Assembly: GCA_963681505.1 (NCBI GenBank)
Contig: OY811971.1
Location: 8,303,991-8,367,990, forward strand
Source: Eunapius fragilis
Taxonomy: Eukaryota > Porifera > Demospongiae > Spongillida > Spongillidae
Length of the DNA stretch: 64,000 nucleotides
Reading direction: 5' to 3'
The translations under genes were made by a program, and so were the position numbers. The notes under the pieces were generated by a model. That model worked only from the letters and a program-made list of their open reading frames with translations. It was not told the DNA's origin and made no database searches. Shown here in pieces: positions 5,060-45,100 of the stretch (positions within the stretch are counted from its first letter, which is position 1; each line of letters opens with the position of its first letter).

Positions 5060-5519
5060 CCGAAAACACACTGTACATTTTCAAGATTTTGTCCATTCAC
5101 TTGGCTATTCCCGCAACATGCATCTGACAAATACCTATCGTTCATAAGCTTGTAGAGCTAGCAATTTCCAAATCTACAATGTACTTTTTAATATGCTTAG
5201 TGCAAAAGACCTGTTTACTACCCCCTTCATTTAACATGTTGCTCTGATCTTCCCAACATTACTTTTGTAGCACTTGAAGTTGCTTTACGATTTACCGCAA
5301 ATACATCTTTTAGCAATGCAGTATTGATTGTATTTTACAATCTTTGAAGAATTGCAAAGAAAGTAAAAGTATTTTCTGAATTAATAACCATTTATACTGT
5401 ACAATGAGATTTTGGTTTGTTCTTAGATCATATGAGTTTTCTAAAAATAAATTTTAACTTCGCGTCCTACGAGTAGGACGATAATCCTATGCATAGGACG
5501 ATGGGAAATTAAAGGTTAA
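5060..5519. mobile_element. Dispersed TTAA-type repeat, copy 1
   Basis: This stretch is about 90% alike, by eye, to 17,223-17,681. Its right end carries two neighbouring palindromes, GTCCTACGAGTAGGAC and TCCTATGCATAGGA, then GGGAAATTAAAGG and a TTAA. The left part of the longer copy is not present here, so this copy is truncated or only partly homologous. Confidence 0.75.
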
Positions 5520-8700: not shown

Positions 8701-9109
8701 ATCAATGCATGTGTTTTTTCAGGCAATACTTAACAAGCAGCAACATGACATCACAATCCCCTCCCCTATGCATGCTGTCAGCATGTTTCTTTCGGCACTG
8801 CTGCAAAATCACACACTCCCAATGCGCAACAGTGCTGTTGTTGATCATGAAGAGTCCCAGAGTATCCCTAGAATGTCTTTTGCTCCAGTACCTTCTCATG
8901 TATTGCATTCGTGCCCAGATTTCACCCAGAAGGAGCTGGTTGCTCTAATCTTGAATATTTTTGGTGGTGTCCCTGAAGCATTTCAAATCTTCCATTGCCA
9001 GGCCTCCGCTACTCTGGAAGAACTGGATTTATTTCTGCAGAGAACTATGAAATTTCCGATTAAACACCTGATTCTTGAAGTCAGCGAGCTGCCTTTTCAT
9101 CTTCAGGAG
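5785..9109 (+). CDS. RNF213-like gene, exons 1-4: stalk region
   Basis: These four exons give residues 1-979 of the visible protein. The first exon is unusually long (1,812 nt) and opens directly behind an acceptor, EIVPELKAFQ, with no Met, so coding continues upstream of it. The content is helical with no catalytic motif, as expected for the long stalk arm that precedes the AAA ring in RNF213. Blocks such as TLIRLWFSRAE and GDFVRKLGFLD fit that part of the family, as judged from memory. The donor of exon 1 (GAG then GTTAGA) is weak, but it is the one that keeps the frame into GDTLQNMANDLD. Introns 2 and 3 are 238 and 52 bp. Confidence 0.8.
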
Positions 9110-18100: not shown

Positions 18101-21100
18101 ATGGCTAACTCTCGGGTTCTCAGAACTTTGTTTTTTTTTGGGCGTAATATAAAAACTGTTACAACACATGTGCAAGCTGGCATGTATGTGTGTATATCAT
18201 TGTCTTTATGCACTTGCAGATATTGTGAAGTTCAGCACTGACCCGAATGTTGCTGAAGATGAGTGCCACAGCCTGCTCAATGAGTACATGGCTAAACACA
18301 TCAGCGCCAGGAAAATCACACAACGTTTGTTCATCAAGCAAGTGTTCTAGTGATATAATATTATTATATATATGGAACGTACTAAGAGAAAATGGGCCTT
18401 GTGGATTTGTATGCATCAATTCAAATCGATATATCGTTCGAACTATTAACGCTATTGCCTTCCTATTTATAATGCAGCATACCACACCATTACTATATAT
18501 TTGAATACATAGTGGTGCTGCCTTAGTCATATAGGGTACTAACGTTACGATGTCCTATACAATATAAGTTTCAAAATCACCATATTTCTGGTAGGAGTGT
18601 ACAAATTGCACTGTGCGTAGAGGTGTCTTGTCGCTATTGAAGTCTTCTGTTTGTTAATTTTGATATGGAGATTTAGTTGTGCTATGGTTCCCACTTGATT
18701 TGTGCCAATAATTTAGGCACCCGCCTCCCATTCATTGAATGGCTAAATCACTGACACGAATTTAGCTGGAAACTGCACGCACTTTGCATAGCTATATCTC
18801 CATTACGGATATGGTGAAAATTAACGAACTGAACAAATTAATAGCAACAGGACCCTTCTACACGTTTACCATATTCAATGCGATTTGAATCTCCTATGTA
18901 GTTGTTAGAAACCCAAAGGGGTATCAGACCCCCTTGGCACTTTAACCTTATGAGAATGTCAATAGTAACGATAAAGTATCAATGTTGCTAAGAAATTACA
19001 AAATATACACTGACTTACATAAAAATAATTGACCTTTAGCATCTCTTTCCATGCTTGGAAGTATTACTTTATGGAAGAAAGTGTTATGGTTTGTTTGACC
19101 CAATATTTAGGATAATAGTGTGTTATGCATGCAGTTGTAAACGTAATATCCATTCATCACTTGTGGATTAATATAAATCTCTCATCCTCTAGATACATGA
19201 GCAACCGATGTCATTTTCTTGACCATTTTCCAGCTTTCAACTACAATAGTGGTGTGGGAGAATATAAAAGAAATAGTAAGGGAGAACAGGTACTCACTAA
19301 TACCAGAGAATTGGGATCTTCACTCATGGAAACCATGTTGAAGGAAGTTAGTGACTTTTGTGATCCAGCGATTAAAGAGAATTGGTCCCTCGTCCCTCAC
19401 CAGCAGGTTATGAGGTAGTATGCATGCTGTTCTGATATTCACTGCCATTCATCTCTTCCAGTTGATCTATGACGTCAAAGATGGGGGCGCCAGCCTTGAT
19501 CTTATCACTCTTCATGCAGACAGGATGTCACAGACTGAAAAGGCCAAATTTTCTAAGATGGGAGTGAATGTCCCATCAATGATGTTAGATTGTTTCGTAA
19601 TGTGCAATTTTTTGTAGTAACCTTTAATCATTGGCAGGGAGATGCATTCCAGGGAACTACTTGACAAATACCTATCTAGAGCTCTCAATATTGAGTTGAA
19701 TAATGGCCGTCTAAAACCTATTGATGATGCTGGCTATGTTCTCACCTTGGACTACACTCTGAAGATGCTCAACATCCATGAGCGTTACAGAAGTGGGATG
19801 CCAGTGATAATTGAAGGGGAGACTGGTGTGGGCAAGACAGCACTCGTGCAGATGTTGTCAGTCCTCTGGAATCATTCCCTATTCAGCAACTGGAACAAAG
19901 AGAAGGGCCAAATGCTAGATATTATTAGACAGAGGATAGGTGCTCTCTCGGCAGACTCTTATGACGGCTATGGGGTAAGTGTTGTGTTGCTATGATCATT
20001 ATACTGTTAATACTAGTGCACATGTATCCACCTGGAACAGAGATGTGTGCAGCTGATCAGCCAGCTTACAGAAGAGAAACCTGTCACCTATGAGGACCTG
20101 CTTCTGTTATGTAACTTACCTGGCTCAACGCAGTTCCCACAAATAATGTATGCAGATCTGAAGGGCCACCTTCTTGCAATGAGGCACTTCCCAGTTGTCA
20201 CACTCTTGGCTACTAAGGAGAAGACGGATCTGAATGTGCTGTTCCAAGCAGTTGAAGCCAACAACACAGCAGAGGTGAGTAGCAACTGGCAAAAGTCAGC
20301 TGTGTGCTGGACATAAATTTTTAGGCATACATAATGGAGTTAGTCTGTTACAGTACCTATTTGGGTCATCCCACAGCACTTACTCTTCTCTAGCTAATTT
20401 AAATTTCCAATTCTTCTCATAGATCTATCACTTATGTTTCCCCACATTTCTTCATAAAAGAAAATACGAAACGCTATTGTTTTATTACTCTTGCGGCCTT
20501 TAATCTTTGCATTGAAGTACCTATCTCCCTGGAGAAGCATATATAATTGTTGGATTAACTAAACACTTCTATGAAATTGAAATATAATGTGGAATTTCCA
20601 ATTATTTAGATGGGTTAAAGGGTTGACTATTATTCTTAATATTTATAAGGTACGCGACACTTTGGAACTAATATCAAACAATTATTGAACACACTCCCCA
20701 CCTTGTAGCCAATTAATCAGATTCCAATTCTGAACAGATTACAAAAATCCTTTCGTTGGTGCTCTTTTCTGCTGTTCTCTATGACCAAACTTTGGCAGGC
20801 AGGTGGTGAATTGGCCATTTCCACTTCTTCCACTAATATGTGTGACTGTGGATCATCTTAAATATAATTTATTTCCAATGGATAGAAATGTCAAACAGAA
20901 CATTGTGATGCTCCAGATTTGACCATGTTCTATGCTCCTCAAACATCAACATCTGTACCTTGAATCAATTGCTTGACAATAGCTAGCTTCCAGAAGGTTC
21001 AAGGAATATCTTGATCATACACTAAGACAGAGTCTTCAATTGCTACTTTCATATGAAATCTTCCCGCAATTCAGTTAGGGATTGCCTTCTCCACCTATGA

Positions 21101-24100
21101 GATAGCATGGCATTTCAATATTGGAATCATTGGGGAAGATCGGTGGCTGTCACATTTCCTGTCATAGTTATCATCCCTGCAATAGTTTGGTTCAGGAATG
21201 CTGAATATTTGATGTTCCAAAAGAAGATGGGATGGTGTCAATAGCTCCCCCAAGAAGCGTGAAATTCAAAATTCCTTCACTTCATCAACAACAGCAAGCA
21301 GTTAATCAACTGAAAGCCTTGCTTAAATTATGTCTTTTTAGCCACTGCTTTAAAGACCTTAAGAATCATTTAGTTCAGTAAACAATCTTTTAGCTGTGGC
21401 CTTTTCAACCTTCTTGAAATTCTTCCTTTTGTCTGAGATAACTCTGTTCAGAATGCCTCTTCGTGCAGTGAACCTTTGAAAACTGTGGGATGAATGTATC
21501 TGTGATCACACCTGGGAGGACGTTGAGATGTACCGCTCTTGTGGCACAAAATTATTAGTAAGTAAATTCACACTTTTTCTGAGTTCTTCATGTAAAAGGT
21601 TTAGCAAAATTGAAAGAAATGCTACTAAATGGAAATGCTCTATTTACTCAACATTCAGGCGAGAAAGAGGTAGTGGACAACTATAAGATTTTGCAGTAAA
21701 TCTACTGCAAATATCGGATTTTCCAGTGAACCTACTGCAAATCATGCACTAATGGAGTATATAAGATACTCCCTTAACAATCCAGAAGCATGACCACTAG
21801 CTGTTCAAAGTTGTCCTTCAGTCCACTGTACTGATATCAAACCTTCATGGGCCAGTTTCATAATCCATCTGGTAATGTGGTATTGGGCTCTTAGGAGTAC
21901 ATTTGTCTACCACGGTGTGCTGAAAGCCAGTGTAAAAGCAATGGAGATACAAAGTTATAGTAACCAAGCATAATGTTATTTAGATGCTCTGACTTGGGAT
22001 CTGAGAAACAAAATTATAGCATGGCGATTTCTGGCCAAGCACTAACGGACATGTACAATGAGCACGCACTGTGAAATGTAAAAAGGATGTTACACTGGCA
22101 GGACGTATATTCATATATATTTTCTGTACACAACAGGATACAAAGTGCACACACCTCCAGGGGTGGACAAGCAGAGGAAGAACGAGGATTTTATTACTTT
22201 ATTCACAACTATCAATGCAGATTGCCTAATTGTCTGCCATGAAAATATAATTGAGGGGCTGGGAGGAGGGGGTTTAAACCCCCTCCTTTCTGGCCACCCG
22301 GGTGAAAACTTAAGGTATGAAGTATACAGTTCTAATGCTAATAACAGCCATTGGAAGCTTCCAATGACACTTGGCAGCAGGCTCTAGAGAAAGGGAGGTC
22401 TGAGTTGCGATCTTTGTCTCTTTACTCACTTGTGGATGTCAAGGTCATATATCAGGGCCCTAATAATAGTAATAATAATAATGCCCACGTATGTTTTGTG
22501 CATCTCATTTTGGCTAGACCCTACTGTCTTGCTTCTTGAGTAGGGATCCTCCACCCACCTAGTAAAATAGTCTGAAGCAATTAAATATACAAAGTATTAT
22601 TTCTGGTTAACGCTACTTCTTGGCGAATGCTTGCTGGGACAACCTGCAACCTGAAAATGCTTTGAAAAGCATCCTTGCAAGTTATAGAATTCAACCTGTG
22701 CATTAATCTATGTCTAATCAACACTGACATACCGTGGCAATTTGATTTTGCATTTGGTATAGTTCACTTGACTTCCCGCTCTCTAGCAGGATAGTACATG
22801 TGCATTAATCAAATGTGCTACATACTCTTTTGCATCAGCTAAGTCCCGGTGTCATCTTCGGGCCTACATACTTTAGTAGAGTAGCATAGGATGGGAAGTG
22901 GTCGGCAACCACACTTTCAACCCAACACAGCGCATTCAAAAAGGCATTTCAATAAAAGGGTAAAAGCCACCCTCTGGGTTGTTATAAAGTATAGTTTAAT
23001 GCCACTACTATGTTCCTTTGAAATAATAACACATCAGGTTTCGAACACTACCTACGCTATCACACATGCCAATCACTACCTATGCTAACCCATACACCTA
23101 TTTCCAGACGTTAGTTCACACATGACATCCTGAATATTGTACATGTCTTGATTATTGCATGGCAGCTATGTCATATGAGTAGAGCAGCGTTCCACCAGAT
23201 TTAAAATCCTGGGGGGGGGGGGGGGGGGGGGGGGGGCATGCTGTGCGAACAATGAATTATTTATCATACCAATCAAAAAAACCTAGGTCATCACGCTGGC
23301 AAATTAATAGTGCATTAATTGCTAAAATCGATTTGCTAGGTGCTATAAATCTTAAAAATCAATAACACTTATTTTCAATAATCGACTTTGATTTTTCAAA
23401 AAGTTTACACACCCTGATGGCCAACCCATTTTAAAAATAACTATAAATTTTCAATATCCTTGGAAGTCTTTATTAAAATTCAAAATGATATATGTATCCA
23501 TCAGCTGTTATCTTCTATTCATTTATCTATATCTTTAAAGTGTTACTATGATCAGCACAGCAAAGTCAGCAAAATACATACCAAGTAGTAGACGTAGTAT
23601 TTAGATAAGCATTGCTAAACACACTTTGTTGATTTGCTCAGTGAGTTTGAATATATGCAGGACTTTTTAGTTGCATGACTATTGTGAAACATAGTTACAT
23701 GTATGGATTTATAACCAATTAGACATCTAATATGTCTAAAATCACATGAGCTTTTATGGATTAGACTACAGCAAAACTACTAGAAGGCATATACTTTTCT
23801 CAACTGAAACCAACATTTTACAAAGTCAACATTCATGCAGGTAAGTGTTTACATTTTTTATACAGCCTATATTCTCACATATGTGTACATCTTGCACACA
23901 CTTTTCCATATTCCAGCCCTGACTCCACTTGAAATACAAAAGTTACTAATACCTGCTTTTGACCAGGCCAGAGGACTCCAGTTCCAGGCAAACAGCAAAG
24001 TCATACGTGAGAATATTCCTTTCATTACAGTAAGTCATCATTTCAAATATCCATGATTTGAATTTCATTGAAACTAGGTGTTTCTTGATGAGGTGAACAC

Positions 24101-27100
24101 GTCATCATGCCTTGGACTGCTCAAAGAAGTCATCGTAGATAGAACATTGGATGGAGAGGTTTGCAATTAAGTGTTCTTGGAGATCATTTATGAATGTACC
24201 TGCTCTTCTAGCCCATTCCCCAGAATGTGTTTATAGTGGCAGCCTGCAATCCTCACCGTGGGAACAGCCTAGCATCACATAAGCAGGACAAATGGCTTAG
24301 GGGGTCCTACAATGTTCGTCCCCTGCACCCGACCCTTCAGCTGATAATGTGGGATTATGGTGCCTTGGACAGTGTTCAAGAGAGGGACTATATCAATGCA
24401 AAGATTAAGGTGCTTCACAGATCCATGCCCAGTGTTCAGGTGGCCATGCTCACAACGCTCATTGAAGTTAGTCAGGAGGTGATGAGAGACTATGCAGAAC
24501 AGCAGCTACGATCCAATAATTGTAGCCTACAAGAAGCCAAAGTAGCTTCACGTAGCTGTGTCAGCCAGAGAGACATACAGAGAGTATTTAGCTTACATGA
24601 GTGGTTTATGAATAGGTATGATGAATCCAAACCTTATGGAGATAACACTGACTGTCATGTCAGAGCTTTGCTGGTAGCACTTGGAATAGTGTATTTCATG
24701 CGTCTCAATACAAAGTACCGCAAACTTTACAGTGACAAAATGGATCTAGAAAGCCAGCCTTTTCATAAAGTCATGTTTTCTAAGGCTTTCAAAGATGAGC
24801 TAGACTTTTTCATTAACCAGGTAGACCTACCACAGGGAATTGCCAAAACCCAGGCACTCAAAGAAAACATATTTGCAACCATCATCTGCGCAGTAACACG
24901 CACACCTCTGATCATTGTGGGTGCCCCTGGCTCCTCAAAGACCCTTTCATTCACTGTTACTATCGCTAACCTCAAAGGCCAAGAATCCAAAATGCTATTA
25001 TTCAGACAAACAGACAAGTATCCCTCACTTGACCCCCATTACTACCAATGTTCAAGGCGTACCACATCAAATGAAATTTTGACTGTTTTCTCACGAGCTA
25101 TAAATCGTCAGAGATCACACAGGAAAGGATTTTTGCCTATTAACTGTGTGGTATTCATGGATGAAGCTGGCCTTCCTGAAGAAAGTCATGAATCTTTGAA
25201 AGTTCTCCACTATTTCTTGGACAATCCAGAGGTCTCCTTTGTGGCCATAACAAATCATGTCCTTGATGCAGCCAAAACCAACCGTGCCATTAGTCTCTTC
25301 AGGCCAGAGAGCTTAGGAGATGACCTTGAAACCCTTGCCAAGGGGTGCTTGTGCTCAACGCCAGATGACCCTCCTCCTGAACTTATTAATGATCTTAACA
25401 CAATTACTCTTTTTTGCAAGCCTTACCTGGATTTGATGAAGAGCGGTAAATTTAAACAGTTTTTTGGTCTACGAGATTTTATTCATTTTGTGAACTATTT
25501 GAGAAGGAGACGTCGGGATGCTCTTAATCCACAGGTGGTACTCGAAGCGCTGGAAAGGAATTTCAATGGTTCAGCCGAATTTAAGGTCATTTGCCAACAG
25601 TTTCTAGCAGTGGTAAGTTGCATATATAGGGCGGGGGTTTCCCTTTCTCATTCCATTTTCTAAAATAGCTTGACTTCAAGTTGGAGAGTCTTGCACAAAG
25701 GCCAATCCTTGATATTTTGAGTGACAGCCTTTCTGATCGTCCCAATGATGCCAACCGCACAGAAAATGAAGTTCGGTACAAGTTGATCATTGATCCATCA
25801 GAGGATGATTCATTAGTACGGCTTCTGTTTACCTTTGGCGTCCTAGATAGGCATAATTCACGTGTGTTTGTGTGCAGTGATTTCCCAGGAGACACTCACC
25901 TACAAAAGGTATACCATTGCACATTATTAAGCAACTAGCTTGAGCTGCACCTACTCCCTCCCTCCCACCACTAGATAAATACAATTGCTGCAATTCGTCA
26001 CTCTGCCATTGAGGGACACACAGTCATAATGACTCAGGCAAACGACATTCATGAAAGTTTCTATGACCTGTTCAATCAGAGGTTTCGCAGGATAGATGAT
26101 GTCCGTGGACCGCGTTACTATGCCAACATAGCTATCGGGGCACACTCCAAACCATGCAGGGTGCATCCTCAGTTCCAATGTGTGGTGGTGATAAAGCAGC
26201 CTGAAGTAAAGAACACACCAGCCCCATTTCTGAACCGTTTTGAAAAGTATTGCCTAACCCACCATGCCCTTCTGGAGGCTGCTCTGGGCATGTTGCCTCC
26301 ATGCATGGCTGTTGTGATTAATGCTGTTAGGGAAAAGGTAAGCAGATTATTGGAGGACAAATAATGGCAGTGGTTGGGGATTACCTCAATGTAACCATGG
26401 TACGAAATAAGGGTTCAATACTGTAACTTTCATTCTTTTGTGGTAGACTATTCTATTATAAATGCTGTTGACAAACTAGGAAGTAGTTTATAGCTGCATA
26501 CCAACTGAAGAGAATAATACGTTGTCTAACGTTACCATGAAGATAGAATGGTTAACATGAAATTCAGTTCCATGTTTGGAAACAGTTGACTAATAAATAA
26601 TGGGTGGTGGATAAGCGATACATACTTATAACTTGCAACTGCCAGTGCATTCCAGGTCATACCAGAGTGGTACATTCCAGGTCATACCAGAATATTCACA
26701 TTTGTAATATCAACCTCATTTTTCTTTCATAGCTATAATGCTATATGATTGAAGCTTATATCAGTGCAAATTGTATTGAACGAACAATAAAATTGCGAAA
26801 GTTATATTCCAGCTGCATGGTTAGTTAATGAGTTGTTGGGTGTGACGATCCTCTTATGTGATAATCAATACAAAAGGTGGAGACCTTCCTGTGCACGTTT
26901 GTGCCTTTTAGCAACACTAGTACACAGAGCTCAGAGGTAGTAACTGGCTGTGGGTCCTGCTTGTTTCCAACTACTATTGTTGAGCAAACAACTAATGAAA
27001 TGTGTCACGAATGGGTGGTTACATCACAAAATGGCACCTTTGAAAGGCTAAAACTCAGTGTCGGATTGCCAAGCAGTACCCTGTCTGAGTTACTATGACT

Positions 27101-30100
27101 TCCTTTATACTTTATACCACGTAGGTTTGTTTTGTTCAATGCCATTATGAATAATTATTGGGGCCTGCCCTTAAGTGTGTTAAGTTCCTCCAACTTTATC
27201 ACTTTTAACATACTCTGTACCACGCTTTAATTATATATGATGCAGTTTTGTGTTTAATTCACAAATACACACTTTCCCATTCTAAGTTGCTTATGTCAAC
27301 ATGCGATTGTAAGTTTTACAAACATGTGATTTTAAAACTGCCAATGAATTAATTGAGGTCATAGACCTGTGAAAAGAATAATGAAATACTTCACTTTGAA
27401 GTTGATTTGCAATTTTTAGCTGGCTATTTCCTAATTCGAGGTTCTTGTTCTTACTGATTTTCTGCAAAGGGGGTGGGGAGGGGGGTGATATCAAAAGATG
27501 GAGTTGAAAAGTACAGCCAACGCATAATTTCCACACATCATTTATATACTGAAGTCATGCAGCTCTTTTCTATGTGAAATGTTACTGTATATCATTCTAG
27601 CTGTCTATTTAACCAACTCTTAGGGTTAGTTTTAATAACCTTAATGAATCACCAATACTGCAATCAGTTGAAGACACATAGTACGTGTACCAAATATTTT
27701 GAAACACATGTATGCAAAATTTCATGATACAATGTGGTGATGTGGATTCACTCTGTTTTAGCTAACCCTTATTTACATCTAACATTAACTGCCATTTAGA
27801 CCAATGAGTTTATTAATTCAGTTGGAGGAAAGGAGAGCTTCTATGGAATGAAGGATGAAACCATGGACTCTTTGCTTCTCTCCATACTACCCACTCAGAG
27901 GCATGCTTACCAGGCCCGTGAACCAGAAGATCACCTAAATGTAGACCATAGCATTGAGTTAGTATGTTTGCAACAGCTGGTACATGCTTTTAGAACCAGT
28001 GCAGGATTTTGCATTCCCACGGTAAGCATATCTGATATTTTAAACCTGTTATTGTGGTCTTGTATACATGGGAAATGTACATACAATTATTATATATATA
28101 ACTTTACTTCTCATTTATAATGAAAATGCTCTCTCTTTGAAATACTATAATTTTTAAAAGATTTAAAGTGCTACCAGCTTCCTATTTATGTCATGCCACA
28201 CGATTCATGTATATTTTGTCCTTTAAGTTTCTCTCTCTCTGGGGTTTCAAAATATATTTTTTTCTGTAGGTATTTCCTGATTTTGGTATGTAATGAAATG
28301 CATGAGTCGTTTAACAATTAATTTTTACTGTCCCAATTTCATTTCAATGCATAGCTGTGCAAAGTAATAGCACTTTCATGGCCACTTTGCACCAATCATT
28401 CAAGTGTCCAATGTATGGGTGATGGGTGCCTGATCATTGGCGCAAATCAGGCAGGCCAAATTTCATGCACCTTGCACTGCTGTTTTCAAAAGGGGTTAAG
28501 TGAAAAGCAACAAGGAGTGCAAATCAATATCTGCAGAACTTCTTTACCTTATATACGACTTTGGAAATGATTTGGACACTCCTACAGAAAGATATTTACG
28601 TTTTAAACCTTAAGAATAAAGCCATTGTACCATAGGGAAGAGAATTTAAAGGATGTGTTATAGATTAGTCGTGTGTTATGATGTGTTGGAAATTGAACAT
28701 CAGTAGGATTTAATTAAACATTATAGCAATTCAAACAGAGAGTAATTTGTATACGCAGGGGCAGTATTCTACCTGATACATGTATGGGCATAATTCAAAC
28801 TTCTGTCCTTCAGTTTTCATTGGAAGAACTCGAACTAGATTCACAACATGTCTTTCATTATGTGTGTGCTGATCCCGAGTTCAAGGGACTACTCAAGACA
28901 CTCACCCCTCAGAGGGTGAGGCAAGCCATTGCTGAAGCCATGCAGAAGCTGCTTGTTGTTCCTCCCACTCAAAGTAACAATTCTAATGTAGGGTTGTCCA
29001 CTGAGGGTTGTGCCATGGTAACCATGGCTATCCAATGGTTGATTAGACACATGTGCAAGCGCCTAATGCAACTGATGACTCCTGAGGCCATCACCATTCA
29101 CAGGATGCATATCCACACCTCTTACCTGATCAGTTATCTCAGACGCCATTCCCACTTCTCCCTCAAGGTATTGATCAATGACCACCTCAACACCTTGAAG
29201 CATGCTATGAAAAGGTAAGTGAAATAAAATTCAAGTTCAGTTACCTTAACAATCTCTTACATTCTATTCCAGCTTCAATCCAACAAAGCTAATTTGCTAC
29301 ACCCGAACATCCTCTCTTATGCATAAGCTCCCACCGTCTTATTTGGGTGTGAATGTTTCTACGGTAGGTATTGAGGTAGACAAAGCTATCAAGGACATCG
29401 TGCTTGATGACACAAGTGCTGTTGTGGTCTACAAGCTTTCCAGTAAGCCCCAGAATAGCATTAGAGAGCTCCTCAAGACTTTCACAGCATCTCAAAGTTT
29501 CCAAGTCTTCCTCTTAATTGCCAACATGGGTGAAGTAACAGTGCCAATCATTAACCATCTTCGCATAATGATGGAGGAAGCAGAGAACCTAAGTCAGAGT
29601 CAGTCTTCTATTCCACCTAAGCTTTTTGTTCTTCTCCTGCACTTCCCTCCACAAAACTTCCTAAATCCTTGCTACCCGACACTTTTTCTACCAGGGTGGG
29701 ACCATTACTACCTTGATACCATCGGACAGCATCATGGTAATTGTGTCATTGATGTGGAGAACTGGTTTAGTCATTGCTGCTTTGGTCACAATAAGCACTC
29801 ATATATTAAGGAGGAAGAAGACTCCCTGGTCCAAACAGCATCAGGTCTTCTGGAAGAGATCATTCCTATCTTATCCTCGAAGGTTCCTTTTGGTTCTCAT
29901 TCTGGATTATTTCCATTCAATGGACAGCTAACTATTTCAAAACGTGATGGTCTCCTGTATGAGCTGCTGATCAAAAAGGGTGTTGGTATAGTTTTTTGCA
30001 AGCAATTCAGATCCTACTGGAAGCCAAGTGTAATGTGCAAGTATTTAGAGCAGGCGGCGAGTCGTGCTCTTGAGCAGCAATCGACTCTGAACATCACTGA

Positions 30101-33100
30101 TACCCTCCATGCAGCCTTCAAAGTAATGTTTATGGACTTCATGGTTGTCATGGTATCCAGAGTGAATGAAAACTGTAATTTAGATAGCTTGTTCGTCAAT
30201 GGCGGATCCCCAGCAGTGGATGCCCTCTTTGGAGACTTGTTGGCTGTATACCCATGTCCTTTGTTGGAACAGCTGAAGGTGCTTAGCAACAACCTCCAGG
30301 CCCCAGGTAATCCAGGGTACGTTCCCATTTTTCCATTCTTCCACATGGTGATGAACCACATGGACCAATTGGTCGAGCAGTGCAGAAAAGATTCAAATGT
30401 AAGTGTTGACATCGTTGGGAGTATTGCCAATGCTCCCAGCAGCCAACCTCATGACATGGAGGCAGAAATTCGTAACTTGCATGGAAGAATGTTGTGCTCC
30501 CTCGAGGAGAAGGGAAAGGTGAGAATCAGTGTGTTTGCCTTAATTTTTCCCACTTGTTAATATGCCATTTATCATATTACTTATTATCAGAGTGCCCCTA
30601 AGGATTGTGTCATTGTCTGTATGGAGGCAATATCAAATCATCCTGAGTTGTGGTCAAGATACTTCAGCAACTTCATCATGTCAAGGCTTTGTCTTGTGAG
30701 CCCTGAATCTTCAATTGAAAAGCGGATCATTCAAGAGGTGTTTTACAACCTTGACATGTTCAAAAGTAAAGACAAGATTGTTTACCTTCATGCCTACATG
30801 GCTGTGTACCAACTTGACTTAGCCAAAGTGGCCAATATACTTCGCTCTCTTGCTTTGCTACAAAATGTTCATCCAGATTCTTCTGAGAAACTCTCTCTAC
30901 CATCTCTGTCTTCCCCAGGGAACTCAGCTTATAATCAGTCAGGAAGTGTATTCAATGTCCAGCATTTGAGTACTTTTGTTATCAGTGCATTGTTTAAAGA
31001 CCTCTTTTATTGCATGCATACTGACTTATCTAAGGCTGATGCTCTAAAACAGCTGAAGTTGTGGCAGAGAGCTTACCTAGGCATAATGACTATTCCCTCT
31101 CTTGCTGACAACATCAGTGCTAGTCTGGCCATGTGTAATAATGGAGCTGCAGACATGGAGCTGGTGAAGGCTCAGTCAAACCTGATGAAAGCGGTCTTTG
31201 CAGTCCTCCAGTGCAAGACAGATTGTGACAGCGATACAATCGATTTGGGACAGAAGGTTTTCAATACTCTGTTTACCAGCCACTTCAAGGAAAATGGCGA
31301 GGTATGCAAATGCATGGAAGCATCTGTGTAGGTGGTAAATATATACCATTGTATATCTATTTTCAGCTGAAGGGAATGTGTCCCCATTTAGCAGATATAT
31401 GTCAGGTTGCAGCTCAACTGTGCTTCAAAGCCACCCGCAGAGCTGATGGTCAAATCCACATCCACAGGCTTGTTGAAAGGATATTCAGTCATTTCTTCCC
31501 TGTCAGCAGCATACAATGCTGCCCTGAGGACTGTCATTGGTTTCTATCTTATGCAAATGGTCAGGAAAAATTGCTGTCCCATGCAGCTCTTACAGATACA
31601 GACGACAAGAACCAAGGATTGTCCCAGATTGACAGTGCCAATTTACAGGTATCCAAGCACATCTTCAAGCTCTATCTATCTCGTATGTTGGGCAAGCCAG
31701 AATATGGTGGCAGCCCACTAAATCCACTAGCACTCTTTGAAAGCAAGGTTGGCTCCTTTAATTCTGTGCATATTACTGTGAAGTAAAATTGTTATGCTAT
31801 GATTGCAGACTAGATGTAAATTTGGTCTTTGTACTGATTTTGAAATGGGTACTTTTCAACTGCTGTGTACTTGAATTTAGAATCCATTAATGCACACATT
31901 TTGGTCATGAATCCTAATTCTGTTGTATATTTTTTATTTCCAGCGTCGTGCACTTGTTGGTGAGGTACTGATGTCACAATCTCATCTGGGACCTCCTTCT
32001 CACTATATCCCTATATTCTACAAGCAGAAATTGGAGAAAGATGTTATTGTGAGTGGATACTAATGATGCCTTAATTTCCTAATTGTCGAATTAGTTTCAG
32101 TACTTCTATCGTTACCATATACCACTTCCTCCTATGCATACCACCACTCCTTTTCAATTACCTTGCAATTTATATATCCTTGATCTGATTATAATAGGAC
32201 TATGTTTCTCCACAGAACACACGCATGCATCAGCCACTGGCCCATCTCTATTTCCTGACAGTAATGGAACACCTCTCTGCCAGTCGCCATACACTGCCTG
32301 TTCTAGTCAACACATACAATTCCATAACAGAGGTCAGTTTAGGTGTTGAGTTATAAGCTGTGTTGCTTTTGTATGCATGAACTTGCATGTTACATTGATT
32401 AATTTAGTACTGTGATGATAATTCACATCGACCATACACATAATCCATTTACCATGTGTATATACATGGTTAAAAAATAAACATGTACCTTTTCATCCAC
32501 ATGCCAACACATCAACCAACTGACCACACACATACATGTGCAGTCGTGCACATCAGCCATTACCTGTGATCAAGAGAAGGTACTTCACTTCATTGAGCAG
32601 CAGGCTACAGTGCAGGCCATAATGCGCCAAGTGGCCCTTGATCTTGACCAGTCTGAGCCCAACAAATGTAGACAGCTCTGGGACATCAGACGGGAGCTCA
32701 ATTCTATTCTGGATGACTCTGCAACAGGGGGAAGGGACTTCAAAGGTCATGCCCTTGTTCTAGCATTGCTCGTCATGAAACGTGTAATGAGTTACAGAAA
32801 ATTTGCATATCTTTTGACTGAGCAGTTTGATACCACTTGTCGAGTTATACCATGCCTGGAACAGTTTTGGGTAGAACTGAAGGTTTGTATGAATGTAAAA
32901 CATGTGTATGTGTGATAGGTGTGAGTGCATGAATGTGGGACCACATGTTTTTTTTAAGTATTGTTGTTCAATAACATCATGTCTGTGTGTAGAGCATGGA
33001 AAGGATATTATAGCGTGGGTTTTTAGGTCCCCCTACAATTCCTGGCTATATATATATCTTTTCCATGCTCTAAAATTATAACAGGTGCATTATAACAGAT

Positions 33101-36100
33101 GCATTGATTGTTGGGTATTTAGATAAACACTGAAATGTGATTCCTACAACTCAAGAGACAACAATGGATGCCTTTAGTAAGATGCCAAAAGTGATGATAT
33201 AAAATTGGTCAATGCAGTGAAGAAAACCTCAATCATCACCATTACAACTGTGGTTTTTGAAGCATTAAATTTTTAGTCCATCCTGATATGCCTGTAGGTT
33301 TTTATTCCCCCACACCATTTACGGGCTAATGTGATATTATTACCAATCTACAAATAATGTAATATGTAGGTCATTTTCATTTTGTTTTTTTTTTCAATTA
33401 AAATAAAATAAATCAACACAAGAATTTTAGAACAAGTACTTTAAGTGGACCTTTACCTCTGCACAGGCCAATGGTATAGATTGGAATTCAAAGTGGGAAT
33501 GAAAAGACCTGGTCACTGAGCTGAGTAAGGAAAAAATTTGCATCACAACAAAAAAAGTATGGTAGAATAGAGTTCTTGTCACTTGTCTGCAATTAATGAT
33601 GCAATTCTCTTGTAAACTGTGGTGCTATTGGGCCCATAATGGAAATTGTAATAGTTCACCATGCTTCGTTGTTCAAGCCCTCTTACTACCAGCACGCACG
33701 AACATCGCAACTGACAACCGTTAGCCAATTATTGTATTGAATCATTCACATGACGTCTATATGACGTAATGCATTAAAGGTTTCTAACATTCACCCCCTG
33801 TTGACCAATAGTGAACTCTTGCTGCAGTTGGTTAGCCCACTGTCTGCGCTTCTCTTCACCCTTCTGTGTGACAGTGCACCAAGGACGTGGATATTTTTCA
33901 GACTTATCTTCAACCTTTTGTTACTTGAGGAGTACTCACAGGTTCAAGGGGATGGTGATCTCTAATCGGAAGTTTTGCTAGAAACTTCCTTATAGGACTT
34001 GACCCTGACTATGAACTCATTAAAAATATGTGACCCTTCTCTAACAAGACTCCCGACGATCAGATCATTTAGCTTGTTATAACAATCGACTAGAAGTCAA
34101 AAATGAGCAGTTTCGTCTTTGATTTATGTCACAGAACCGCGTGTGTTGTAGAGAACAAAAAGGTACTGCCCGTCCTCGTACCCAGTCCCGGAACATGGTC
34201 TCCTTCTTCTCCTTCTTGGCAACGCATAATTCAGGATAGGAACACTTTTAAACAATGAAAATTTCACCAATAGCTTCAGAATAGGCTGGAAGAGCCGCTT
34301 TCATATAAAATAGTCGATGTGATGTAATTTTAGATATCTAAAAATGAATGTTTGTATAAATAGCGAACAACTATAGAGTAAACACTTTTGTGCTTCAATT
34401 GTTGATTGGTGTAACCTCGTTTGTTAGCGAAGTTGTTTTTCTCAAAATGCCTTCACGTCAGGAAAAGAAACGAGTGAAATGACATGTGATATACCATCAA
34501 GTTCGATACGATGCTTTAGGATCAGCACGGGCATCCTACAGCGATACATAATATTCACAGTGATTTCAGTGATTTGTGGATGAACAAAAATGAAAGAAAC
34601 AAGTAATTAAAAGCATTCTCTACGAGAAAGTTGGTGGTATATAGGATTTGAAGGCAATTGGTGGTGTAAAAAGATATGAAACAAGGTCTTATCAGAAGGG
34701 AAAATGTAATAGTCCTATATTTAGCACATTTCTAGGGCATGTATTGTTTGTGTGCTAAATATAGGACTATTACATTTTCCCTTCTGATAAGTTTTGCTTT
34801 TTACACCACCAATTGCCTTCAAATTCTACATACCACCAACTTTCTCATAAAGAATATTTTTAATTACTTGTGGATACAACAACTGCAGGGGTTGGTTCAG
34901 GGAAGTGAATCGTTAATTCTTGCCAGAAACTTAACTGTAGCTCCCCTGGTTTTTCCATTTCTGCCCATCATGAGATTCTGGATTCAAAAAACCTCTAGGC
35001 TCTCATCATGCACCACCACTATGTTGCCTACTGAGACTTGACTTTCTCCATGAGATTTCTTGAAAAGTAGTCTGTGGCTTTCTCTCAGCTCTGCCAAGTA
35101 CTCGGTTCTCAATCTCTTCCAAAAGTGGTTAAGGGTGCTGCTAAGATGCTTCAACCACCTTGTCAGTTGAGTTGAATCCACATCAAAATCATTGACTCCT
35201 GGGTTACACAAGTGACTAAGGTAATCAGGAAGATTAATCACTCTACAGCCTATCAACAAATAAAATAGTGTGAAGGGGCTCTTCAGTGTCTCCTGCTGAG
35301 ATATATGATAGTGGGTGAGAATTGATAATGGATTCAATTTCTGTGACTGCAGTTAAGAGTTCATCATGGGTGAGACTAGCTTAACCAACCATCTTCTTTA
35401 GACACCGCTTGGTAGAATGCACCATTCATTCAGAAGCTCCACCTCACCATGGGGCTCCTTCCACATTACATGTCCACTTACATACTCTCTCTGCCAGGTA
35501 GTTGCTTACATCATTGTCCTTAAACACTGTTTTAAGAATCTTGCAGCTGCCTTAAATGTTTTGCCATTATACTGTACAGGTAATCCCTTTCGATCTTCAA
35601 ACACCTAATGAAGGCTCTGTGGACATGTCAAGGGCAATGTCTAGGTGTACTGTTCTTGTCACGAAACAAGTGAACAAACAATATCCAGGCTTTTACAGAC
35701 TTGTTACAACCGTCAGTACAAATCATCAAGGGGCCAGCAAAGTCAACACCTGTAAATCTGAATGCTGGTTCCTCTTTCACTTTGCTTATTGGCAATGGAG
35801 GTGGTGGAGATGCCAAAAATGGAGTTCCTTCGAACCTGTGACATGTAACACATCGGTGTATTTTTAGCTGGACCAGGCTTTATCCCTTGACAATCCAAAA
35901 ATATTCTTCTAATCTCTGTCAAGGTGTCTCATACCCCATTATGTAGTACATGTCTATGTGCAACATTGATGACAAGGGGTGTCATAGGGTGGTTTCAAGA
36001 TAGCAGAAGAGGATACTTCATAGAATATGGAATGTCGGCCATTGGCCAGCCTTCCACCACATCGCCATAGACCTTTCTGATCCAGAAATGAGTTGAATTC

Positions 36101-39100
36101 AAGTTTCAGTGTCTTTAACACATCTTCATGCTCTAGATCCCTTTGGGAGTCTACAATCCATTTGCATTCAGCATCAACCAGCTCATCCGTGTAGAGTAAA
36201 CTGCTGCCCTGGCTTGAATTTTTGCCTTTGAATACTTCCAAGGACCTCATGACACAAGCAGTGTCTCTAACCAGTTTCCTGGAGCTGCTGAATCATCTGC
36301 AGTCTACGAGATCCGCAATAGTAAATTTGACTTCAATAACAACCAGATTGTGGGTTTTAGTCTTCAACTCATTAGAGCATTTTTCTGGCATTTCAATGTG
36401 TTCATCACAATCCCTTAAGGCTAGACTATTCTTTAACCAGTCTGGTACATGCCGCCACAACAAGCTCACTTGTAACCCTGACATCGTCTTTCCTCTTGAT
36501 GGGATATCGGGAGGATTGATAGCTCCTGGACAGTGATACCTCAGGTTTAGGGGCATTTTCTGATGAATTACACAGTTTTGTACAAATTGCTTCCACTCTT
36601 TGTTGATCCCTTTCGAATCGTTTCTGGAGTTTTCGCCACGAGATACACTACAGCTGCATAAGCAGTGGATGATGCATCGCAAAATCCACATACTGTCAAA
36701 ACTCGATATAAACACCACGTTTGTTCCCGTGCTTATAACGAATTTGTGCTTATATCAAATGTGGTTTGGAGGGATAATTATCATCATAGGAATTACATTA
36801 CATGTATGTGCACTTGAACTACTAAACAAACTGGATCCTTGACATTTTTTCCTGTAAACAAATCAGCAACCTGTAGTCTTCCTCTGAGTCCATGTGGAGG
36901 CCAATGTTATCTCCTATGAACTGTAATAGGGTAGAGATACTCTGCTTAGCCTGATCTAATGTCACGCACTGTGGCTCCAAATTGTTTGCATCTTGTAAGC
37001 CATGTTCAGTTTCCTCTTCAATTCTAGCATCATCTTGGCCCATTAGTCGAGCAGCAATATCAGCAATGGACTCCACCTCTTCAATTTCTGTCTCACCAGG
37101 ATCCATCACCCATTCTAATGCAGTAGGCGGTCCATCATCTTGTGTAACAGATAGCCTTGTAATTGCAGTTGCAATTTCCCTCATCTGAGCAGTTTCACCA
37201 GCCTCTGCTGCCAACACTGCTGCCCCATCTCAGTTGATTGCTCCATTCTTTAGGCAGAACTCCTGCCTTACACCAGCAATTGACAATTGTAGTGTTGGAT
37301 ATATCCCTCCAGGCAACTAGGAGCCAATCAATAGCCTAAGAGTTTTAAGATTAGAAAACATTCAACACAATATTTTCAAGTATGGGAAGTGCCCACCTGC
37401 TTTACATTGAATTTTAGTATAGATCTTGATGGGGATCAAGATCATACTGTTGAACCATGAAGTGAGCCAACTTGCTTTTGTATCGAGCCTTAAAAGATAC
37501 AATAATGCCCATGTCCAATGGCAGCACAACTGATGTGCAGTTAGGTGGAAGAAAAATGAGCAAAAGATTGCTCAACCTAAAGGCATTAAAACTGCCCATT
37601 TTAATGAGCTGAATATCTGCTGCACTATGTGAACTGGCATTATCCAGGAGCATTAGGCAGCTATGCTGTTGGTTCTTAAACTCCTCATTAATACGCTGTG
37701 ACCAATCAGTGAAAACCTGGAATGATTTTAGTATATATGCAATTAAACAGTATTATATGCATGTACCTCACTACGCATCCAGGCCTTTTTGTTGCTGTAG
37801 TAGGACACTACACTGCCAGGATTGAAAGTTTTCCCAAAGCAGCAAGGTCGTTTAGATTTATGAATTACAATAGGCTTGAGGCGTTCTCCTCCCGTGCTGT
37901 TCACTGCTAGACCCACAGTTTTGCGGTCCTTGGCTTTCTTAAAGCCTCTCACATCTATGGTTGTTGAAAGAGTACGATCTGGCTGCATGAAGGTAAATTT
38001 TGTTTCTGGTATACAGTGTGTGGATGTTGCTATAAGGTAAGCATTAACATGCACAACAATTTGTTAATATACAATATTAGAACCTGCACTTACTGCCTGC
38101 CTGTAATATAGACCTGTCTCATCATAGTTAAATGCCTGAAGTTGTTTAAGATACTAGGTAGCTTCCTCTGGGCTCTGGCTACACCTTCCTGATCAGCACT
38201 ACCAGCCTCGCCATGAAGGTGCACACTAAAAACACCATGACACCTTTTCCAATTACAAAGCCACCCATAGCTTCGAATCAGCACTCCATCAGTGGTGCAC
38301 TCTTTATCTTGATCTGGCTGACCTGTGTGAGGCATAGCTGTAGGAGGTGTGACTAGAGGAAATGTAGCTGAAGGAGGTGTAGCTGAAGGAGGTGGTGTGA
38401 CTGGAGGAAATGTAGCTGAAGGAGATCTAGCTGTAGAAGGTGTAACTGTAGAAGGTGTAGCTGTAGGAGGTGTAGCTGACAGGTAAAGCTTCGTCATTTC
38501 TCTTTGTGGATTCCATTACTCTAGCAGCCTTGGAAATCTCCGATACACACAAGCTCAGCTTATATTCTTGTGTATCCCAACATACCCCAAGCACCTTCAT
38601 GATAGGTGATCCAAGGTAATGTGGTTCTACTAAAGTGCCATGATTGTATGTCTCCTCAAAGCTTGACATCGGGTATACACTGTGGATTCTCAGAGAGGTT
38701 TTTAGCTGTGTTGATTCTTGACTAAAGTGGTTGAGAGTTGGTCCTAACCTTCCTGAGGTGAAATGCACCATCTTTGAGCATTGCTTTTGAATCTGTGAAC
38801 AGTTGGAAAGCTTCTTCCTCTGTGGAGGCACCTGTCACGTCATCGACATAAAATGAGTCAGTTTCTGAACTAGTGCTGGATGTGAACTCTGATACTGTTC
38901 AAGATGGATTGTTGAATTATACAGGAATGGACTTGGAACAAATCCCAACGATGACTCCTGTAAACCGCAGTGGTGGGATCTTGATTTCTACATCGTCACT
39001 GTTGTCCACCCATAGGAAGTGAAGAACATCTTGATCTCTCTCCTCAATAGATATCTTCATAAAAGCCTTGTCAATATCAGCCATCAGTGCTATCTGATAT

Positions 39101-42100
39101 GAGCGAAACCTCAATAAAATGTCAAGAATATTCTGATCAAAATTTGGTCCAATAAATAGGCAGTCATTCAGGGATGGTTTACCCTCTACCTTTGCTGAAG
39201 CTTCATAGACTACGCACATCTTGGTAGTGTCCTTGTCACTTCGGATTACCGCATGGTGTGGCAAATAGTGGATTTGAGTTGAGTTTCCTTCAACGTTGGG
39301 GGCATCTTTCACAATTCCTTTCTCAATCTGCTCTTGGATTATGTGGTTGTAGTCTTGTAGAAGAACGGGATCTTGTTACTGGGACAATATCAAACGCTGC
39401 CAAGGGTCCAACAGCGATTCATACCAAGTTGGGATCGGTGTTATCTGGTCCAATCGCAGTTAGAGGTCCAAAACAGCAAATCTAGTCACCACTCATGTGC
39501 TCAGAGTTGACACTGAACCTGACTCTCTGAATGACCAGCTGAAATCGTTTTGGGAACTTGAAGCATTGGGAATACAGCCAAATGAGGAGGCCTGTGAAGA
39601 GACCATTAGCACCATCAGGTTTATGGAAGGGAGGTATGAGGTGTCACTACCCTGGAAGCAGTTCCATCAGCTACTACTTGATAACTATTGCGTGAGCCAA
39701 TAGAGACTTAAGGGACTTCTGAGGCATTTATGACAGAATTGCGCAATAATGATCCGATCCTATGAGGACATCCACTTCTAATGTGGATCCTTGGTCTGCC
39801 CAATCAGCAAGCTCTAAATTATTAAAATGTGGATTCTGCTTGACACACACATCTATGGGTTGACCAATTATAGGAGCAACAAATAAGGTCACATACATGC
39901 TGGGACATCCTTTCAATAGGATCTTCACATTGAGAATGGGACATTCCTTGAAATCACCTCTGGAGCAACCAAAAGCAGCTATCGAGAGTTGCTGTTCACC
40001 CTTGGGGTCCAACGTCAGTGCTCTAGCTCGCTCAGACAAATAGGATTGTTGGCTGCCTCCGTCAAGCAGTATTCATAGTTCCACTGGGCAATCAGGAGTC
40101 TTGGGGTTGCAGATCAGAGCTTGGGTTGTCTGCAGTAGAACACACTTTCTACTAGTTGGGCTATGTACATTGATGGCTGGGGTCAATAAAGGTGAAGCAT
40201 CTGGGTTTATAGTAGAGACAACCATGTTGGTAGAGCTTGAACTCTTCTGGTGGACTGCTGAAGTTTGGTCACATATGCTTGGATGGTGGTTCCTGTTGCA
40301 AGTTTGACATTGAGGTGATGAGCGACATTTTCTCCCAACGTGACCCTTTATAAGACAGTTGAAGCATCTCCCAGAGGTCTTAAGGATCTGTCGACGATCA
40401 TCAGGACTTGTCACGTGTGGCAATTGACAGAGGAGTGTTGCTGTTGGCAGTAGCAGAATCCGTTTAGTGCCTTTGTAGACTCAGTTGTCCCAGAGAAAAG
40501 TGTTGTGGCTGTGGGTGATGAACGAGGTTTGTCCTGCCTGTCTTGAGGGTGACGGTTAATCCTGTCTGGATCACAAGAACGCTCTCTGCTATGAATTCTT
40601 CCTCCCAAACCTTCAGTAATGTCTCAAGGTCTATATCTTCACTTGGTGACTTTCTGGTCATAATCAATCTGATCTCAGGAGGCAGCTTCGTCAATAACAC
40701 TGATGTTAGCATTGTTCCATAGGATTCCTGTTCCTCTCCAAGAGCCTTCAGACTTCTGACACTAGTCTCCACCTCATCAAACAATCAACTCAGTCCCCTC
40801 ATGCCATGTTAACCTGTAACTGCATTCAGGTTGAGTAAGGTTTCCATAAGCCTTGATATGATTGTCTGCCAGTTCCAAAATCATTTTTTCAAGATGTCTA
40901 TTGCTGCACGATAGTTGGCTGATGATAGGATCAGTCCCGCTATAGCTTCATAGGCTGTCTTCTCCAACAATGACCACAAGTAGTTAAACTTGTCGACGTC
41001 AGAAAGAGAGCCATTGAGGTGGACTGCGGACTCAAAATGCTGTCAAATAAGTTTTGGTTTTGCGAATCTGCCCAAGCATCTTGTGTATTTTTTCCGCGCA
41101 TTCATCAGCTCTCCCGGCCCTATCTCATCTTCAAGCTCATCTGCTGGGACAGTTCCACTAACTCCTTATCCAAGGCTTCCAGCATGGTGAGCTTGGCTGA
41201 GAGATTGGTCTGCAGTAGTGCCAATGCATTAACATATATTCTGGAATCTCCTAATGCAGACTCCGCTTGGCTCAGAAGTCTAGAAGCCGACGCTCTGTGT
41301 GCGGTGCGTACTTTCTTCTTACGTGCAAGTGTTTCTTCACTTGCCATCGTTCAAGTTGTTGGTGGGCTTCAATTAATGCGTTAAAGGTTCCTAACAGAAA
41401 TGAACCATGTTCAATCTCTCTCATTTGTTCTTCGTATTCCATCTTCCTACCACCCTAAATAACTTACCTTGTACTATTGAGATACCATTATCATATATAT
41501 TCTCCCAATTGTAATACACATATTTGTATACCCTATGTTTTTCCATTTATAAAATACGGCCACTCACATAATTAATTATTTTTGCACCTCTGTGAGTTTG
41601 AGAGCAATGCTTGATTTAAAGGACAGCTTTAATAACCTTATGCTTTTTTTCCTTATTTTAACTGTTTGTGAAGATGGTTCCTTGAAATGGGTACCTGTAT
41701 GAAGGCTAGCAGCCATTTTGGTTGCCTCCCTAAACGGTGTTCATTGAAGTCCTTATAAGGTGTTAATGAACACAATGCAATGCAGCTATCATATTGCTGA
41801 ATTGCATGTGTGCATTCACTAAGACCTAACAAGGACTACATGACAGAACAACATTTTAGGGAGGCATTGATAATGGTGCTAATGTTCAAAGTGGTACTCA
41901 GTCCAATGAAACATTTTCCCAAACAGTTTTAAAAAAGAAAAAGGATAAGGTTATTGAAGCTGTCCTTTTAAAAAATTTGTGTGATTTACAACTATGTTAT
42001 TTTGTTACTCATTAAAAATCATGTCATACTTTAACCCCTTAAGCACACATCCATGATGATAACATCTGATAAGTAGGTACATCCTTATAATGCTCATTGT

Positions 42101-45100
42101 TTGGTACAAAAAAAATTGGACCCATGTATAACCACATGCAAGCAATGCTCTTTCTAACTCACAAAGGTGATTGCAATAATTAATGATGCGAGTGGCCATT
42201 TCATAAACGGAACTTCATACAATATACAAATTTTGTGTATTAAAAATGGGAGAATATTTATGGGAAATGGTATCTCAATATGAGAAGGTAATGTATTTAG
42301 GTGGTACAATTTACCATGAAATAACCCATGTATGAGAAGAAATGTGACTAAAAATAAAAATATATAAATAAATCCCACTACTTTAAATGGAGCAAGTGTG
42401 ATGGCTGGATCTGCTGTGTCAGCTGCTGAAGCCCGCAAACATGCCACTAATGATGCAAAATGCAACCGTTTGTTCTGGGTTTGCATCCCTTTAGCCATGG
42501 AGACTTCCGGTTGTTGGGGAGTCGAAGCCATTAAATGTCCCGACAGACTCGCTGCACGTATTGCTACTCGCACAGCCCGCCCAAAGTCTTCGGCTGTGTC
42601 AGTAGGTCTTCAGTTTATTGACGTCTTTTGTCTTAATCTAATTTCATGTATAAATTGATTAAATCAAAAAATTAAAAAAATCAAAAATTTAAAAAATCAC
42701 TTATTACCAATAGAATAACAAATCTCTCATATTGCTAGTATAGATTAAGTGTGTGAACATTATATTCATTCTAATGTGTCATAATCCCCTTGGCTCAATG
42801 CTCAAAATAAGAACTATGTTGTGATAGCCATTCAACTCAGGTTTATTAAGACTGTACTCTTGAAATGTTTAAATAGCTGATTCTTACATGGACGTTGCCA
42901 CAGGATTCATAATGGCCCATGCACTTCTGATTGGTAACACTTTATCATTATATAATGTCGTTTCTATGACCGGTTATGCGCAGTGAAATAATTGAATTGA
43001 ATATTGGAATTGAAACCTGGATAATAAAATATCGTTTTCGTTATGTTTCTACAGTTCTTCTATTTCCAAAATACCCATACATAATCACTATAGTAGGCAA
43101 AATGCATAGAGTGCTTGCATAAAACTGTGAAAAATTAAGGAAAAAATTGATCATTTCAAATGCGCAACTTACGTATACGATGTTTTAAGTTTCATTATGC
43201 CTTCTGACATTAGTTAGACCTGTACATGTAGCAAATAGATAATATACAACAGTTTTAGTCCATACGAATGATATTTAATCATCCAGGTGTTACAAAAATG
43301 TTTAGAAACGCCCCCACATTACAGAGCGCAATGCAATAAATGGCAGTGATTGCTATGACAACTATCAATTAAATTAATTGGGGGGGGGGGGGATCATTGT
43401 ATAAACATTTTTTACAAAGAAAATAGCTACAACAAGCATCCTTAAGGAAATGTGGCATCTACGAATGGCTGAAATTGCTGATATATTGCTCATTCCAAAT
43501 AGGTGTATCCAGTCTTAAAATACCGGAGTGGGGCAGGCAAATGTTAAATATATGTTCGCACACACATTTATATTTGAATAGAACAAGCATGTTAATCTAG
43601 ATGCAGAAAAGTTCGTTCGTACAGTGCTGGTCCAAGATCAGTAGATACATGTATGCATCTGTTCCACAATACTGAGTACTCCATAAATGATCATAATGTA
43701 AACATGTTAGTTTTGTGCCACTAAGAAATGGATTAAAGTGTTTGCATAGTTCTCTTAATGTGGAACAGATTTATGCTGCAGATTGGTTTGTGTCTTTGAG
43801 AGACACAGTAGTCACTGTATCTTCTGTATCTTCTTCATTGTCCAAAAATGTTGTCACGGTTAGCTGCTAGATGTTATCACAATCCTTATCATAACTAGTT
43901 AATACTCTTAACAAAACAACTGCTGAATTTTATATCTGTACTGCTGCATGTACGCGCACGCAATGGTTGGAAAAAATGACCAGCAATAGTACAAGTTGCT
44001 TAGTCATACGTGCATTTTGATCGATGTCTGCCCATTATTTTGAGCACTGATGGTTGATTATTATTTTTATTTTCATGTTTACACGTTTGAAGATGGAAAT
44101 CATCTATTGGTAATCAGCAAAACCTGTTTCACGTGTTTATTGCATTTTTGTTTACAGGAGCAGGCAGAACCAAAGCCACACCTATTTCCTTTTTTGGTAG
44201 ACAATTCTAAATCACTTTTAGGCACCATGTATCGTCAGGTCCACACCACCATGATTAAGTTACATGCTGGCAAGGGCAGTATTGAGGATTTGGTCAAAAT
44301 CGCCAGTGGAAGGTAAATGGGAGTGAGTTCACATGCTTGTAATACATATACTGTAGCATTAACTATCAAAACGAATGCATGGATTTGTATTGTGTATGTG
44401 TGTCTGATAATGTACATGTTCCAAAACTTTTTCTGTCACGTTCTAATGGTTCCGATTGTCATTTAATAGCAGCTTCAAGTCAATGAGGATGACAAAGAAA
44501 AAGCAAGGCATAGATATAACCGGTGCATTCAGGATGGCTGTGTGGTTAACTACGTACTATGATTTCTTTGATAAAAATGTAAGGTACCTCCCCAGTTGAT
44601 GTCACTTAATTTTACTCTTCACACCTTGTTATTAGATAAAGTCAGAGCGGCTATGCAGTGCCATTTGTGGAGAACAAATTGCTCACTTGTTTGAAGAAGG
44701 ACACATAGCCATCATCCAGCGGTTTCTTAACCCAGCCTTGATGTTGGTAATGCCACAGCAGCAGAGTGGCCAGGCTGTTGATCCTCTTTTAGAACTCTTC
44801 AGACCTTCAGAGTCCAAACCTTTAGGTAATTAGTTTTAATTAATTTATATGATCTCTTACACCCTATTTACCCATCCCATAACAGATCAATCAGATTCTG
44901 ATCTTCGTCATGCTTTGGCTAACATGGTTGCTGTGGTGATAGGATCTCCCAAGGCCAGCAATCATTTATGGTATCACATATTTGCACCAGGTGACCTTGC
45001 TGATACATATATGACCGGATTCATGGTAACATTTGTAGCAATCTGGTACTGTCTATTGGTTTATGCACCTCCCTATGCAGTATGACACCAAAGTTAACTC

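Follow-up and report, generated by a model that had tools for sequence, protein, structure and literature searches.

The 64,000-nucleotide stretch of Eunapius fragilis DNA analyzed here (the window) contains an RNF213-like gene that includes an 18-exon chain at 24078-45772 (+), with 6684 coding bases (2228 amino acids), GT-AG ends at every intron and no stop codon. Of the 18 exons, 16 were also predicted exactly by a custom exon finder, which additionally called many false small exons in the long introns and served only to guide the C-terminal model. Upstream, a large coding exon (5785-7503, +; 573 amino acids, open frame without CxxC, precise ends uncertain) is probably part of the same gene, judging by its order and strand; Pfam gave no match at E ≤1 over 5785-7632 and 8702-9133. 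A further coding exon 5' of AAA3 (15420-15793, +) is an open frame that was assigned by eye and has approximate ends. Downstream, the exon structure between 50.9 and 51.43 kb is ambiguous, and it is followed by C-terminal coding pieces with approximate splice sites (51430-51784, 52120-52324, 52624-52911, 52966-53026, 53077-53202, and 53258-53567; all +) and by the final coding pieces, which include an acidic tail and lie 5' of the SAM region (55659-56498, +; boundaries uncertain). The terminal exon (56629-57073, +) encodes two SAM stretches (Pfam SAM_1, PF00536, 2.3e-22) and, from its order, strand, and frame, also appears to belong to the RNF213-like gene, which is presumably expressed as modelled.

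The motor was compared with proteins of known structure using phmmer. When a 769-amino-acid joined motor piece was searched against the PDB, the best match was RNF213 (E 2.1e-58), as were all nine of the nine sequences at E ≤0.001. The AAA3 Walker A motif, GETGVGKT, lies on an exon at 19642-19974 (+) that matches RNF213 (6tay_A, E 4e-08; 8s24_A 2430-2476, E 3.6e-07, one stretch), and its lysine was placed at human K2426 from matched ranges of equal length rather than from a printed alignment. Four midasin sequences rank above RNF213 for this exon, with whole-sequence scores that are summed over weak stretches. Midasin/Rea1 is a six-AAA relative whose chains match this exon, but it differs in that the longer motor piece matches only RNF213 at the threshold above. 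The AAA3 Walker B motif, VFLDEVNTS, is on a GT-AG, in-frame exon (24078-24158, +) and aligns with human E2488. In the phmmer alignment, the AAA4 exon (24212-25612, +) carries both GAPGSSKT as Walker A, at human K2775, and VVFMDEAGL as Walker B, at human E2845, and a 264-amino-acid AAA4 stretch is 37% identical to human RNF213. The catalytic residues equivalent to human K2426, E2488, K2775, and E2845 are all kept; residue numbers are those of PMC11549300, and PDB chain offsets were derived by hand. The RNF213-like exons 25669-25908 and 25975-26337 (+) correspond by position to AAA5, detectable RNF213 similarity stops in the exon at 27800-28021 (+; model residue ~752, human ~3259), and exons 28814-29214 and 29273-30518 (+), both open with GT-AG ends, are AAA6-like by position.

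These data indicate, at the sequence level, that the motor is of the RNF213 type, a two-site, dynein-like AAA+ machine with ATPase sites that look intact. The earlier note had reported full Walker A and B motifs in two AAA units, which the alignment to RNF213 confirmed, and the RNF213-type motor that it described is supported by the E value of the joined piece and the identity in AAA4. Vertebrate RNF213, or mysterin (human 8S24 and 9JW1; mouse 6TAX and 7OIK), and the sponge gene are alike in AAA3-AAA4-AAA5 sequence, in both Walker A lysines, in both Walker B glutamates, and in C-terminal length; in contrast to the vertebrate proteins, the sponge gene is without RING and RZ, its E3 part is unrecognisable by sequence, and it has two SAM stretches at its C terminus.

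Exon 22 (30591-31301, +; 237 amino acids) ends in the residues ENGE, followed by a gtatgc donor, and exon 23 (31367-31747, +) opens with LKGMCPHLADICQVAAQLCF after a ttttcag acceptor. The intron between them (31302-31366, +) starts with GT, ends with AG, is in phase 0, and has a length of 65 bp, which is not a multiple of 3; read-through from exon 22 encounters a stop at 31329-31331. Such an intron is ordinary in this gene because 9 of the 17 introns in the 18-exon model measure 53-72 bp. The statement in the earlier note that it is too small to hide a zinc-finger exon holds, with its boundaries and phase confirmed and both flanking exons in frame.

Neither a RING nor an RZ finger was recognisable in the parts of the sequence that were scanned. 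Three RING patterns (full, lax, and half-site) gave 0 matches in six frames of the whole 64-kb window; in human RNF213, the positive control, they matched at 3997, 3997, and 4012, and the RZ pattern matched at 4505 and also within the RING at 4009. The RZ pattern found only two gag-type transposon zinc knuckles in the six frames of the window, at 48009 (+) and 40357 (-). Pfam searches at E ≤1 in all forward frames over 24000-46800 and 50816-57117 detected neither finger, and the control on human 3997-4596 returned RZ (PF20173) at 9e-21 and RING at 4.9e-07. The 2228-residue model contains 59 Cys and zero CxxC, which is not rare alone given that 1.5 are expected by chance; CxxC is also absent from 9 C-terminal pieces, from 7 of 9 upstream pieces (the other two lacked an open frame within the chosen bounds), and from the SAM exon. 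The six-frame patterns, the Pfam forward frames, and the lack of CxxC together support the earlier proposal that the RING is missing from the gene, and the 32.9-44.2 kb intron, which had been named as a place where a RING exon might yet be found, yielded none by either Pfam forward frames or six-frame patterns.

With positive controls for both methods, no counterpart was found in the gene for the human RING finger (3997-4036) or, by pattern or Pfam, for the RZ finger (human C4505, H4509, C4516, C4525, C4528, and H4537), which would be expected in the region of exons 44158-44312, 44473-44578, 44636-44825, 44886-45025, 45081-45434, and 45641-45772 (+). Within the region searched for RZ, positions 45111-45200 encode HYDCGVELSPDGLYGCQDYLKHACRGTY, with three Cys and no CxxC. 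The description of the gene as a motor-competent RNF213 without its namesake ligase domain was therefore sound as regards the RING but incomplete, as the RZ finger was not found either. The RZ absence weighs more for ligase activity because it is the RZ finger that carries out the ligase work of RNF213, according to the accessible part of PMC11549300.

It is quite improbable that a RING or RZ exon is present but was missed because an intron interrupts it, because its sequence has diverged too far, or because it lies in a stretch without a profile scan. The Pfam frame scan was limited to the forward strand and did not extend over 46801-50815 or most of 1-24000, a CLKCSLGG stretch occurs in a stop-broken frame at 50892, and the 5' end of the gene possibly lies beyond the window; however, the six-frame patterns covered the whole window and revealed no RING and no RING half-site, and the sequence is free of N throughout 24078-57073.

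In mouse RNF213, the RING is an insertion that separates the final two helices of the E3 back, as described in the excerpted text of PMC7311170. The location of the equivalent site in the sponge protein was assessed using human comparison letters taken from PDB chains and three scorings per shuffle test. The earlier note had read the end of exon 22 as text that precedes the RING in vertebrates and the start of exon 23 as text that follows it, and neither assignment was confirmed. Exon 23 scored at the level of shuffles against human post-RING 4037-4160 (p 0.62, 0.69, and 0.50) and mouse post-RING sequence (p 0.79, 0.70, and 0.48), as did the end of exon 22 against human pre-RING 3860-3990 (p 0.54, 0.55, and 0.50). 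The end of exon 22 performed better against human 3985-4105 (p 0.054, 0.0045, and 0.0035; mouse, p 0.16, 0.026, and 0.034). When slices were slid along the post-motor protein (n=191), human 4037-4110 scored best with starts at model 1463-1483 in both matrices. In the reverse test with slices around the junction (1456-1516), 4 of 10 had a human window with a start at 3991-4061 as their best of 185, and the other 6 preferred unrelated or later places. An anchored pair-HMM placed human 4070-4100 at model 1523-1553 in two settings (P 0.66-0.87) and lost the diagonal in a third (P ~0.04). Collinear placement was obtained for the human CTD segment 4940-5000 and for none of the RING-only, pre-RING, pre-RZ, and post-RZ segments, and in one matrix the RING plus post-RING segment scored equally well at model 883.

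If the exon 22 alignment is right, the candidate RING-equivalent segment lies at 30966-31091 (+), where L, F, T, K, A, Q, G, and T stand in place of the human RING ligands, none of which is kept; the ligand columns covered in four scorings were 6, 8, 0, and 8 of 8. The RING site would then be within exon 22 and have no zinc ligands. This placement is a lean and no proof because its p value under a whole post-motor-protein shuffle null is 0.07-0.27, because the whole of exon 22 scores at shuffle level against human 3997-5207, and because many comparisons were made. Seven by-eye residue pairings, with scores of -14 to +23, were discarded as evidence.

The version of the original idea in which the 65-bp intron marks a precise excision of only the RING, with the remaining E3 module, RZ included, still active, now appears very improbable. 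The RING was indeed not found in the gene, and a similarity to human MCNSFFVDLVSTICFK is visible by eye in the MC...CFK of exon 23. In addition, an hhalign pairing (P 0.16) between model 1137-1267 and human 3583-3700, when extrapolated, puts human 3997 at model residue ~1564, adjoining the junction at 1555/1556. This positional extrapolation was the one result to favor the junction, however, and no alignment supported it: p values for exon 23 against human or mouse post-RING sequence were 0.48-0.79, human 4037-4110 went best with slices over the end of exon 22 (n=191), and the RZ finger was not found. Erosion of the RING in place, or its loss, within exon 22 would be more likely than a cut-out at the intron.

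Beyond the motor, exons 31367-31747, 31944-32048, 32216-32332, and 32544-32882 (+) are E3-shell-like by order only. Searches of the PDB with exon 22 through exon 26 gave no phmmer match at E ≤10, and comparison of the C-terminal region with human 3997-5207 by BLASTP, hmmsearch, hhalign, and local alignment with shuffles gave nothing significant. When model 753-2066 was aligned globally with human 3260-4490, the score was modestly above full shuffles (z 1.7-2.3; 0-4 of 100 as good, by scoring) and hardly above block shuffles (z 1.0-1.8; 4-15 of 100 as good). Model 1137-1318 paired with human 3560-3780 at p 0.008-0.022, and a 30-residue C-terminal stretch containing GKPLL paired with human 4942-4971 (hhalign P 0.2). 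The length that follows human 3259 is 1948 amino acids in the human protein; here, it is 1476 amino acids in the model plus ~660 amino acids in the C-terminal pieces. We infer an E3 part, rather than observe one, because detectable RNF213 similarity stops near human 3259; from the fit in length and order, the C-terminal region would be a degenerate E3 module. For the E3-back, shell, core, and CTD folds, sequence comparison stayed near the shuffle level, and single-sequence AlphaFold2 predictions for two single exons were of low quality (mean pLDDT 37.5 and 39.2). An NCBIfam search gave nothing useful, and no relatives were found among viral and genome contigs. One C-terminal piece gave only chance phmmer matches, to cytochrome P450.

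An RNF213-type motor could instead be joined to a C-terminal region that is unrelated to the E3 module, in which case the gene has another architecture and no finger was ever lost. This is unlikely, although it would account for the end of phmmer similarity at human ~3259, for the lack of PDB matches to exons 22-26, and for scores against the human E3 module that mostly stay at shuffle level. It sits less well with a length near that of the human module, with three weak pairings in collinear order (human 3560-3780, 4037-4104, and 4942-4971), and with a global alignment that modestly exceeds full shuffles.

The intron after exon 45641-45772 contains the frames of a Pao-type LTR retrotransposon (46858-50799, +; DUF1759, DUF1758, RVT_1, Peptidase_A17 at 2.3e-24, and DUF5641). 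Reading-frame changes are apparent near 51.0 kb and 56.68 kb; at the latter, the first SAM domain starts in one frame (YSVDNVADF) and its remainder (LKNIRLNQYIDVI...) is in another, with the apparent change near 56676. These changes may be assembly errors or decay. A decaying copy, with a complete RNF213 elsewhere in the genome, would fit both the retrotransposon between 45772 and 50911 and the two apparent frame changes, but is quite unlikely given the 18 exons and 6684 coding bases with GT-AG introns throughout and no stop, and given that the frame changes could stem from assembly.

We favor, with a probability of about 50%, a divergent RNF213-family gene that has a two-site motor, an RNF213-like C-terminal length, no recognisable RING or RZ, and two terminal SAM stretches. 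Without the RZ finger, the protein would not be a ubiquitin ligase of the RNF213 kind and, by analogy with RNF213 coats, might act as an ATP-driven assembling scaffold or coat. SAM domains can polymerise, and those at the C terminus could aid polymerisation of the scaffold. A more specific version is possible but doubtful: a natural RNF213 without ligase fingers, whose ATP-driven motor forms coats, whose RING is left as a zinc-less segment of exon 22, whose RZ is gone, and whose SAM domains provide polymerisation, with motor and coat separated from ubiquitin transfer.

Engineered forms of RNF213 offer partial precedents. In the available portions of PMC11549300, Walker residues are required for RNF213 coats on 3 of 3 pathogens studied, and the RZ mutants H4509A and C4516S still coat Toxoplasma vacuoles, 1 of the 3 targets. 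Since these RZ mutants coat the vacuoles and Walker mutants do not, a ligase-independent role is possible in principle. Like the sponge protein, the mutants have a motor without RZ activity and are a guide to its remaining capacity; they differ in being point mutants with an intact RING that, in that source as available, were tested in mouse cells. The RING-deleted mouse protein lacks the RING as the sponge protein does, and its deletion leaves autoubiquitination in the excerpts of PMC7311170, which also state that a larger deletion in another earlier study presumably disrupted the fold. That engineered protein is an active ligase and, judging from later work, retains its RZ, whereas no RZ was found in the sponge gene. 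Ligase loss could also abolish function, because human mysterin lacking the RING failed to rescue zebrafish muscle in the accessible text of PMC4632019. What the RNF213 motor does beyond ubiquitin transfer is an open question that a natural finger-less homologue would allow to be tested directly; a literature search, mainly of open-access text, partly seen, and without bioRxiv preprints, found no report of an RNF213 homologue without both fingers.

The window also contains other possible repeats. Frames at 35954-40784 (-) resemble by eye a second element related to the Pao-type retrotransposon, with a zinc knuckle near 40298-40357; the three frames tested had no Pfam match at 0.001. The window gave no match in tRNA and Rfam searches, and a run of 200 N at 58189-58388 marks an assembly gap 3' of the gene. 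Palindromes of the forms ATCCTTATTTAAGGAT and ATCCTTAAATAAGGAT are repeated at 53706-53920 and 54849-54893, and a 60-nt inverted repeat is present at 55014-55073 and 55167-55226; these are perhaps small non-autonomous elements.
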